Notes under the pieces: model-generated
Databases searched by the model: none
What the model was told of the DNA's origin: nothing
What the model saw: only the letters and a program-made list of their open reading frames with translations
Position numbers and translations under genes: made by a program
Part shown: positions 9,724 to 29,963 of the stretch, one piece after another
How positions within the stretch are numbered: the stretch's first letter is position 1
How the letters are laid out: each line of letters opens with the position of its first letter
Origin: an uncultured Bacteroidales bacterium
GTDB taxonomy: Bacteria; Bacteroidota; Bacteroidia; Bacteroidales; UBA932
Reading direction: 5' to 3'
Length of the DNA: 38,581 nucleotides
Assembly (NCBI GenBank): GCA_944326335.1
Contig: CALVDM010000021.1
Location: forward strand, 1 to 38,581

Positions 9724-9795
9724 TACCCCCGTGGGGAATCGAACCCCAACCGTCAGAACCGGAATCTGAAATTCTATCCATTAAACTACGGAGGC
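9724..9795 (-). tRNA. tRNA-Arg, anticodon CCG
   Basis: The minus strand folds into a complete 72-base cloverleaf. The acceptor arms GCCTCCG and CGGGGGT pair with two G-U-type pairs. The anticodon stem TCAGA/TCTGA encloses the loop TTCCGGT, giving anticodon CCG (9760-9762), which reads CGG (arginine). The T arm is GGGG-TTCGATT-CCCC. The 3' CCA is not encoded, so it must be added after transcription. Confidence 0.95.
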
Positions 9796-27595: not shown

Positions 27596-28648
27596 ATGCG
27601 CAGATGGATATTGCCGGCAGCTGTAGTCGCCGGTGTCATAGCGGTTTTCGCAGCGGCATTCACGGCTGCACGTTATTATTGTGACAGGAAGGCACCCTCT
27701 TTCGGGAGAGAGTATGTCCTTTACGTCTATCCCGGCACTGACGCAGGCACCGTGATAGACTCCCTTGTGTCAGGGGCTCTGGCCAGAAGGCGGGGAAGCA
27801 TAGAGCGTTGTGCGGCGGACATCGGCCTCGAAGATAACGTAACTCCCGGAAAATATGTAATTCTTCCGGAATATTCTGCTGCGTATGCAGTGCGCATGAT
27901 AGTGAACGGGTGGCAGACTCCGCAGAATCTGACACTTTCCGGTACTATACGTTCCAAGGGCAAGCTCGCCTCGGTGATAGGCCGGCAGATGATGGTGGAT
28001 TCAGCTGCGGTGGCGGCTGCTCTCGAGGACGGAGAGTTCCTGTCAGCATACGGGTTCACTCCGGAGAACGTGTTCGCTCTGTTCCTGCCTGACACCTATG
28101 AATTCTACTGGACGGCAAGTCTCGAGGATATCTTCGCCAGGTTCAGGAAGGAGTATGACAGGTTCTGGACACCGGAGAGGGTTTCCCTTGCAGAGAAACA
28201 GAATCTCACCAAACTCGAGGTCTCGGTCATGGCTTCGATAGTGAACGGGGAGACCCTCGAGGCATCAGAATATGCCAGGATAGCCGGAGTGTATCTGAAC
28301 AGGCTGCACAAGGGTATGAAACTCCAGGCGGACCCGACCGTATGTTTCTGTTTCGACTACACGCTCGACCGGGTGCTCAAGAAGCATCTCAGGGTGGATT
28401 CCCCGTATAACACATATAAATATTACGGGTTGCCTCCGGCTCCCATAAACGTGCCTCCCAAAGCATGCATGGATGCTGTGCTGTCTCCGGACGAGCATGG
28501 CTACCTTTATTTCTGTGCAAGTCCGGAGTTCGACGGCACGCATATCTTCGCCGTCACATACAATGAGCATCTGAGGAATGCGAGAGCTTTCCAGCGGGCA
28601 TTGACTGCCAGGCAAAAGGCTAAAGACCGGCAAGCTTCGCAGCTATGA
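27596..28648 (+). CDS. mltG: Endolytic peptidoglycan transglycosylase MltG
   Basis: The 350-residue inner-membrane protein has one N-terminal transmembrane helix (about 4-26) and a periplasmic YceG-like domain. The catalytic Glu is most likely E219 in MASIVNGETLEASE, matching E218 of E. coli; the Glu usually two residues before it (EKET) is Asn here. GVYLNRLHKGMKLQADPTV (231-249), SPYNTYKYYGLPPAPI and FDGTHIFAVTYNEHL are strongly conserved family motifs. MltG cuts nascent glycan strands and sets their length. Its 3' end overlaps the convergent C_GCAxxG_C_C gene by 29 bases, which leaves no room for a terminator between them. Confidence 0.95.
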   Translation: MRRWILPAAVVAGVIAVFAAAFTAARYYCDRKAPSFGREYVLYVYPGTDAGTVIDSLVSGALARRRGSIERCAADIGLEDNVTPGKYVILPEYSAAYAVRMIVNGWQTPQNLTLSGTIRSKGKLASVIGRQMMVDSAAVAAALEDGEFLSAYGFTPENVFALFLPDTYEFYWTASLEDIFARFRKEYDRFWTPERVSLAEKQNLTKLEVSVMASIVNGETLEASEYARIAGVYLNRLHKGMKLQADPTVCFCFDYTLDRVLKKHLRVDSPYNTYKYYGLPPAPINVPPKACMDAVLSPDEHGYLYFCASPEFDGTHIFAVTYNEHLRNARAFQRALTARQKAKDRQASQL

Positions 28649-29144
28649 TTCTGGCGGAACAGGCCACAAGTTCTGGGCAAGGGCGTTTGCGGTAGTATTC
28701 CGCGGTCCTGTCGGAAGGTCTCGGAGGTTCCACTCCGCACGAGGTTTCCTGCCCTTCTGCCGCAGGTCTTGCCTTGCGGTCCAGACCGAGCAGTTCCCGG
28801 CAGACAATGCTTCCGTTCTCCTCCCTGAATTTCCCGGCCAGTTCCTGCACGAGGGCATAGTTGGCAGTCCTCTCATCCATGTTCTTCGGATGTATTGCCG
28901 GAGACATGAAACCTGCCGCCATTCCCATTGCGGAAACGGTCCCGCAGACTTCACGCATGCGGGCCATTCCTCCTCCGAATCCTGATGCTACCGTGGCTAT
29001 TGTCTCCGGGCTGACTCCGAAAATGTCCTGGAATGCGAGGAGTACCGCCTGGCAGCAGTTATATCCGTCAAGAAAATTCTGTTTTGCTCTTTGTGCCCTT
29101 TCCTCGATGTCGAAATCGGCGGGCAGTTCAAAAAAATTTCCCAT
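28620..29144 (-). CDS. C_GCAxxG_C_C family cysteine-rich protein
   Basis: The 174-residue protein matches the C_GCAxxG_C_C family: paired cysteines in YNCCQAVLLAFQ (near 28-39), the glycine-rich GFGGGMARMREVCGTVSAMG (near 55-74), then CRELLG and a final CPELVACSARI. The spacing of conserved cysteines suggests a redox or metal/cluster-binding role, but no reaction has been settled for the family. The mid-region between the last cysteine groups (EGQETSCGVEPPRPSDR) looks variable. It converges with mltG (29-base overlap), and its start codon is only 12 bases from a 242-base inverted-repeat element, so its promoter probably lies inside that element. Confidence 0.85.
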   Translation of the reverse strand: MGNFFELPADFDIEERAQRAKQNFLDGYNCCQAVLLAFQDIFGVSPETIATVASGFGGGMARMREVCGTVSAMGMAAGFMSPAIHPKNMDERTANYALVQELAGKFREENGSIVCRELLGLDRKARPAAEGQETSCGVEPPRPSDRTAEYYRKRPCPELVACSARIIAAKLAGL

Positions 29145-29156
29145 AAAGGCTACTTC

Positions 29157-29398
29157 AATTAACGTCAGTTCGACGAATTTATGTCGTTCAGGACCAGGGA
29201 ATTCGTCGAACAGTCGTTATGGATTTCCTTGAAATCCAGATTTCTTAAACCCCAGTCGCTGTGGCGACAGCCCCTTTTCAAGGGGCGCCACCCCCATTCG
29301 CCCCCTCGCCGGGGGCTCGTCGCAGAACTACGTTCTGCTCCTCAGCGGAAGTTCGATGATTTTCACTAAATTAAAATTCATCGAACTCACGTTCAATT
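29157..29398. repeat. MITE/REP-like palindromic element with terminal inverted repeats
   Basis: The left end (29157-29180) and the right end read on the other strand (29398-29374) match at about 22 of 24 positions with one gap. Both contain AACGTnAGTTCGAnGAATTT. Each end also folds on itself: GTTCGACGAATT (29168-29179) with AATTCGTCGAAC (29200-29211), and GTTCGATGA (29351-29359) with TCATCGAAC (29378-29386). Between them are perfect small hairpins at 29221-29237 (GGATTTC/GAAATCC), 29255-29268, 29270-29286 (GCCCCTT/AAGGGGC), 29300-29316 (GCCCCC/GGGGGC) and 29323-29337 (CAGAAC/GTTCTG). No open frame is convincing. A possible 3-base direct repeat TCA flanks the inner ends. It fills most of the gap between the two divergent genes. 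Confidence 0.75.
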
Positions 29399-29528: not shown

Positions 29529-29963
29529 ATGGAACTATTGGAAGATGTTTTTTTACCTGTTGCAATCTGTGTGCTTCTGCCGGTTCTGCTGGTGTGGATA
29601 GTGCAGTATTACCGTATGAAGATGATGGACAGGAGGATGGATGTCCTCGTCAAGGCGATTGAAAACGGCCAGGATGTGGACCCCGACCTTCTGTCCGGGA
29701 GTTTCGGCAAGGAGAGAAAATCCCCGAGGATGAAGCTGCTCGACAAGCTTCAGACAGGAATCCTCTGCCTTCTGATAGGAGCCGGCTTGCTTGTGTCAAG
29801 ACTTCTGGACGTGGGCTTCGATTCAGGGTTGTTGAGCATGGCGGGAGTAGTATTCCTCGGTGTCGGCCTCGGGATGACCGTTTCGTTCTTTGTTGGACGC
29901 AAATTTCTTGCAGGGGAACTTGACGACAGTCCGAAACCGGCAGCCGGAAAACAGGAGGAATAA
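29529..29963 (+). CDS. DUF6249-like small membrane protein
   Basis: The 144-residue protein starts at ATG 29529 (MELLEDVFLPVAICVLL); a TTG three codons earlier is less likely. Helix 1 covers about residues 7-27. A charged cytosolic region follows (about 28-75, with MKMMDRRMDVLVKAIENGQD and a basic FGKERKSPRMK stretch). Then come two helices (about 78-95 and 101-123, the latter ending GLGMTVSFFVGRKF) and a short hydrophilic tail. This pattern fits the DUF6249 proteins found beside ECF sigma genes in Bacteroidota; no molecular function is known. The sigma gene begins 23 bases downstream. Confidence 0.75.
   Translation: MELLEDVFLPVAICVLLPVLLVWIVQYYRMKMMDRRMDVLVKAIENGQDVDPDLLSGSFGKERKSPRMKLLDKLQTGILCLLIGAGLLVSRLLDVGFDSGLLSMAGVVFLGVGLGMTVSFFVGRKFLAGELDDSPKPAAGKQEE

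Follow-up and report, generated by a model that had tools for sequence, protein, structure and literature searches.

A small non-coding transposon of a gut Cryptobacteroides genome, probably mobilized by an insertion sequence of a known family

The window analysed here is a stretch of 38,581 nucleotides from an uncultured Bacteroidales bacterium (assembly GCA_944326335.1, contig CALVDM010000021.1, positions 1 to 38,581, forward strand), whose host genus we infer to be Cryptobacteroides. Two divergently transcribed genes, encoding a C_GCAxxG_C_C redox protein and a DUF6249 protein, are separated in it by a spacer containing a 233-bp element that begins with AACG, ends with CGTT and lies between two copies of CAATT, with boundaries set by comparison of copies (Table 1). 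The terminal inverted repeats of the element (29161-29180 and 29374-29393) are 20 bp long and 90% complementary, and each end is itself palindromic, with 29160-29179 matching 29200-29219 on the left (90%) and 29350-29363 matching 29374-29387 on the right (93%); between the terminal hairpins H1 and H7 lie five perfect ones, H2 to H6. Inverted and palindromic ends and internal hairpins had already been recognized in a sequence-only reading of this DNA, which judged the region too organized for an ordinary spacer; in agreement with this, the folds of both strands are better than those of all 200 dinucleotide shuffles (z -8.3 and -7.3), so that the structure exceeds chance. The extent proposed at that stage, 29157-29398, does contain the element, but also takes in AATT on the left and CAATT on the right, which belong to the target duplication; the TCA triplets near the inner ends, then considered as a possible duplication, are not one, that role falling to CAATT. 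No open reading frame of at least 80 aa lies wholly within the 233 bp, and a transposase gene is absent.

Table 1. Parts of the element and adjacent genes (positions in the window)
Feature	Position	Strand	Basis or remark
Neighbour gene, C_GCAxxG_C_C redox protein	28620..29144	-	PF09719, E 2.7e-32; ATG 16 bp from H1 end; outside element
Target duplication, left copy CAATT	29156..29160	.	sequence
Element, type A MITE, AACG...CGTT, oriented with H1 first	29161..29393	+	comparison of copies
H1, left terminal hairpin (18-bp end and inverted copy of that end)	29161..29218	+	present in 45 aligned elements
H2, terminator-like hairpin, T-rich tail on + strand	29220..29238	+	stem GGATTTC/GAAATCC in 61/63 elements
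H3, interior hairpin	29255..29268	+	two pairs changed on both sides
H4, interior hairpin	29270..29286	+	stem without variation in 13 rows
H5, interior hairpin	29300..29316	+	one pair changed on both sides
H6, interior hairpin	29322..29338	+	three pairs two-sided; 5- or 6-pair stem in 51/63 elements
H7, right terminal hairpin	29350..29387	+	inverted-repeat and fold analysis
Right terminal inverted repeat	29374..29393	-	90% complementary to 29161-29180
Target duplication, right copy CAATT	29394..29398	.	sequence
Neighbour gene, DUF6249	29529..29963	+	PF19762, E 1e-14; starts 135 bp from H7 end; outside element

Copies that share these ends but have different flanks are found both in the source genome and elsewhere in the genus. 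The source genome (2.34 Mb in 61 contigs, 89.7% complete) contains 41 match rows for the element, and the end pattern occurs in it 61 times at up to 3 mismatches, versus once for a reversed control; several of its contigs stop inside element copies, as expected of repeats. Within the genus the ends were found in 35 of 250 sampled genomes, with up to 97 matches per genome, a count to which a single element can contribute several times. Among the matches listed for the core (80 of at least 117 stretches), the named records are Bacteroidales MAGs, including those of four Candidatus Cryptobacteroides species, and plasmid and phage collections gave no match to the element. The interior model R1, applied with strict filters (E 0.001) to 296 genomes of the phylum, matched the source genome alone, which gives no support to the idea that the interior is a hairpin module shared by many phyla.

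The copies fall into three architectures with common ends. Type A, to which the window copy belongs, is mostly 230-238 bp long; in type B, of about 270-322 bp, hairpin arms are replaced by one or two copies of a module of about 50 bases, module X; and type C has a different interior and a length of mostly 199-210 bp. In assembling these sets, 26 of 62 loci were dropped from the end-pair analysis for want of an end pair, 58 of 121 core matches for lacking an end (leaving 63 full elements, three of them with flanks too short), and 13 of 71 type C anchors again for lack of an end pair; the highest count for any one type within a genome is the 66 type C anchor matches of G138, out of which 40 further regions were taken in. 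The position of module X within the interior varies from copy to copy, and of its 16 places in the source genome nine are in this family and seven elsewhere, the one of those seven that was inspected lying in an unrelated hairpin repeat. One locus of another genome (L059, about 1217-1620, in G182) combines the family ends with an interior bearing a variant of module X, in which the outer frame is the same and the hairpin arms differ. A solo 55-bp left hairpin flanked by the 5-bp duplication AATAT (L036, 985-1039, on contig C11 of the source genome) may be the smallest form in which the family moves; solo left hairpins are not claimed as a separate class, because a 5-bp duplication was seen in this one of four candidates.

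Of 130 copies, 50 lie between exact 5-bp duplications (25/70 of types A and B, 25/60 of type C), against a mean of 2.7 and a maximum of 9 when the pairing of flanks was shuffled; the other 80 copies are without an exact duplication. Earlier sets, which overlap with one another, gave 16/36, 19/60 and 24/58. The target consensus is AT-rich, about T|AWWTT|A. Since type B elements, whose hairpins are broken by the module, and type C elements both carry target duplications, the interior is dispensable for movement. An empty site, which the sequence-only reading had proposed to look for in relatives, is provided by the spacer upstream of the C_GCAxxG gene, alignable between the window and genome G076: the latter has a copy whose H1 end is about 110 bp from the start codon, and the site of that copy runs through in the window, the alignment having small gaps close by. 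At the position of the window copy, 16 bp upstream of the gene's start codon, the element is missing from G076, but so are 18 bases. Twelve further loci of this spacer, not alignable by eye, showed no element.

An insertion sequence with matching ends, another expectation of the sequence-only reading, was found in other genomes of the genus. In three loci a complete frame lies between paired ends at a distance of 1,056-1,067 bp, giving intact insertion sequences of about 1.05 kb in genomes G167 (L072, 310 aa), G096 (L079, 312 aa) and G074 (L071, whose ends differ at two positions), in addition to two broken copies (L073 and L074). The proteins of L072 and L079 belong to the IS982 family (NF033520 at 250 and 251 bits, cut-off 130), that of L079 also matching PF13612 at 5e-70; among the three intact insertion sequences, L072 alone has an exact 5-bp duplication. 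The transposase occurs at E 1e-20 in 11 of the 250 genomes of the genus, and nine of these 11 also belong to the 35 genomes that have the ends (p 3.5e-7). This association has a circular component, since the insertion sequence itself carries ends that fit the pattern. No IS982 transposase was found in the 89.7% complete source genome. Of 18 end-bearing genomes, most of them selected for high copy number, the IS982 model matched five and exceeded the cut-off in one (G102), and it had no hit in G254, a genome given as 100% complete that has 15 end matches. The partner is thus present in the genus, yet most of the copy-rich genomes searched are without a recognizable one. The ends of the element would be acted on in trans by an IS982-family transposase, at present or until recently. 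In a separate observation, a CRISPR-like array with 36-base repeats adjoins the end of an IS982-type remnant in genome G063 (L049, from about 1535).

Dispersed ends, the IS982 partner, 5-bp duplications and the empty site therefore identify the element as a miniature inverted-repeat transposable element (MITE) of the IS982 kind, in line with the first of the readings that the sequence alone had suggested, and positions 29161-29393 are a small transposon without coding capacity, resident in gut Cryptobacteroides and probably mobilized by an insertion sequence of this known family. Another such reading, a repeat of the REP/BIME type, which would be moved by a RAYT (tyrosine) transposase and consist of palindromes tagged GTAG or CGTC with no target duplication, is very improbable: its palindromes would also be located in spacers, and CGTC-type repeats are reported from Bacteroidetes in the available part of one paper (PMC3733652), but the unit here measures about 200-320 bp rather than 20-40 bp, and the target duplications and the DDE insertion sequence with the same ends weigh against it. 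The joint explanation that best accounts for the data, given a probability of roughly 0.9, is a MITE of the Cryptobacteroides genome, presumably mobilized by an IS982-family transposase in trans, whose interior fold is conserved and whose insertions in the opposite direction relative to transcription would be lost as harmful.

The hairpin chain is conserved between species. In an alignment of 13 of 21 interiors, picked for difference and drawn from eight genomes, pairing is kept in 99.3% of the pair cells of a structure derived from the same alignment, and falls to 39-60% when the partner is slid out of register. Compensatory changes, whose presence in the hairpins bears on the suggestion of a structured RNA made from the sequence, were detected at 6 of 24 pairs; the covariation score of 0.173 is higher than in any of 500 shuffles (mean 0.092). 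Further pair types are no more numerous among the 13 interiors than in shuffles. The constancy of H3 and H4 in the full elements derives partly from the choice of rows, because the search pattern fixes most of both. Among the 63 full elements, the stem of H2 is identical in 61 while its loop is variable, and H6, which forms a 5- or 6-pair stem in 51 with the arms CAGGA, CAGAA or CAGAC, is shorter or missing in the other 12. Such kept pairing may reflect either a constraint on pairing itself or a replication process in which one arm is corrected from the other.

The element also has a preferred direction relative to genes. Contexts were assigned by means of a gene caller based on codon usage, which recovers the genes of the window; 13 of the 130 elements fell within predicted genes and 12 at the edges of loci. 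In the 60 tandem contexts, where both neighbours point the same way, transcription runs from H7 to H1 in 51 (p 3e-8), namely in 30/34 of types A and B and in 21/26 of type C, 11 of these 21 being G138 regions added for that count; where both neighbours are within 200 bp, the figure is 43/48. A cruder caller based on the longest open reading frame, which misplaced the divergent pair of the window (L299) among the tandem ones, gave 47/55 and, after merging of similar flanks, 40 clusters against 6, with 2 mixed. At the 20 convergent sites the H7 end is the nearer one to the stop codon in 15 (p 0.04).

Such a bias could be set at insertion, through the target sequence or a transcription-coupled polarity of the transposase, with no later selection. 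This is possible though rather doubtful: the + strand is rich in T at targets and left flanks whatever the gene context (T/A skew 0.16 on the left and 0.02 on the right), but with a target model, for which 75 non-tandem sites served as training set, 54-61% H7-to-H1 insertions are expected versus the 47/55 observed with the cruder caller (p 8e-5 to 7e-7), and target preference alone was rejected as the cause on these figures.

Of the 25 divergent contexts, 19 have the H1 end as the one closer to a start codon (p 0.015), and in 15 this end is within 21 bp of it; the window copy fits this pattern, with start codons 16 bp from its H1 end and 135 bp from its H7 end. The H1 end might accordingly be an outward promoter or leader, with copies persisting where they drive the gene that they face, and the conserved end does contain TAAATTCG, one letter off the Bacteroidetes -7 promoter consensus TAnnTTTG. 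Against this reading, which appears improbable, no fitting upstream box was seen, copies within short operon junctions have no need of a promoter, and a sigma-70 scan of the region was negative, albeit with a model unsuited to Bacteroidetes.

The leading account of the direction in types A and B is that insertions which keep transcription from reaching the gene downstream are lost. Terminator-like sites are present on the + strand of 61/70 elements of these types and on the - strand of 20/70; in the most frequent of the forms listed, the + strand site consists of H2 and the T-rich tail that follows, and in the window it is H2. Insertions read in the H1-to-H7 direction would be lost as harmful to the downstream gene, most likely, in types A and B, through termination at H2, whereas the H7-to-H1 direction would let transcription pass, with the element as a folded spacer in the RNA. 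This account fails for type C, in which terminator-like sites are found on the + strand of 2/60 elements and on the - strand of 19/60, and it leaves the proximity of H7 to stop codons in convergent contexts unexplained.

The failure in type C, where the direction bias persists, is one point in favour of an element that arose as a MITE and is kept for its RNA, with selection maintaining structure as well as direction and the H7-to-H1 chain altering the processing, stability or read-through of the host mRNA; the compensatory changes and the constancy of stems whose loops vary also agree with such a role. Types B and C, however, show the same direction or movement with broken or different interiors, no copy at one site is conserved across many species at the loci inspected, and arm correction by template switching could yield compensatory changes without selection, so that this alternative is judged unlikely. 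Similarly, that a transposon family has turned into a mobile, directional operon-junction RNA, kept mainly where it faces a downstream start codon, is a tentative idea to which a low probability is assigned. Of the structured RNA suggested by the sequence-only reading there thus remain hairpins that covary between species and a direction that follows transcription; membership of a described family does not, a search of the window at Rfam gathering scores having returned a tRNA at 9724-9795 only and no match for the element.

As a MITE mobilized from an IS982-type source, the element has a close parallel in MITECca01 of Cardinium cOegib, a member of the Bacteroidota, which is derived from ISCca4 of the IS982 family according to the available part of its report (PMC9769881). 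As described there, MITECca01 is likewise about 240 bp long, without a transposase gene, mostly intergenic and present in many copies, and, in a comparison made by description, both have inverted repeats that are palindromic and resemble the ends of an IS982-family element (PMC9769881). Unlike the element described here, whose source genome has no recognizable partner and whose ends occur in 35/250 genomes, MITECca01 coexists with an intact parental element in the same genome and is known from one strain only; the part of its description at hand includes neither a conserved interior fold nor a direction bias (PMC9769881). Further afield, ERIC, BOX, RUP, SPRITE and QMITE2 are also short and intergenic and give stable stem-loop transcripts, but differ from the Cryptobacteroides MITE in ends and hosts; BOX is modular, and the effects of ERIC and boxB depend on orientation, as far as the available text of two sources goes (PMC10969869, PMC3049150). 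In those portions, the first, a MITE review, does not mention the word "orientation", and the second mentions neither covariation nor compensation. The BrickBuilt MITE of Porphyromonas gingivalis, as covered in the same portion of the review (PMC10969869), resembles the present family in belonging to the Bacteroidales, being strictly intergenic and having internal repeats, and differs from it in containing a minisatellite. A search of the open literature, with subscription journals mostly outside its coverage, returned no paper on transposable elements, repeats or insertion sequences of Cryptobacteroides and none on covarying hairpins in bacterial MITEs.

IS982-derived MITEs, MITEs that fold and orientation effects in operons are therefore already known, and what is unusual here is the conservation of the fold together with the direction bias. 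The family adds an IS982-type MITE and its candidate partner to a gut bacterial genus, and the combination of compensation in passenger hairpins with a direction bias makes it testable how non-coding transposons survive in operons, be it by not stopping transcription one way, by an insertion preference or by a useful effect on the RNA.

Some observations concern the surroundings of the element and other repeats. YceG and the C_GCAxxG gene, a convergent pair (27596-29144 in the window), are neighbours in many genomes of this genus; on the far side of the element the gene differs. A second hairpin-rich repeat family, seen on contig C6 of the source genome (L154, about 1320-1680) and upstream of the C_GCAxxG gene in two loci (L300 and L309), has a strong terminator-like outer hairpin beginning GGTGACCAAAAG, a GTCTTTC/GAAAGAC hairpin and further hairpins; its L154 copy also contains module X. 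Finally, a hairpin block like the interior of the MITE, but without the MITE ends, is flanked by two direct repeats of about 45 bases in genome G029 (L031, about 1450-1620).
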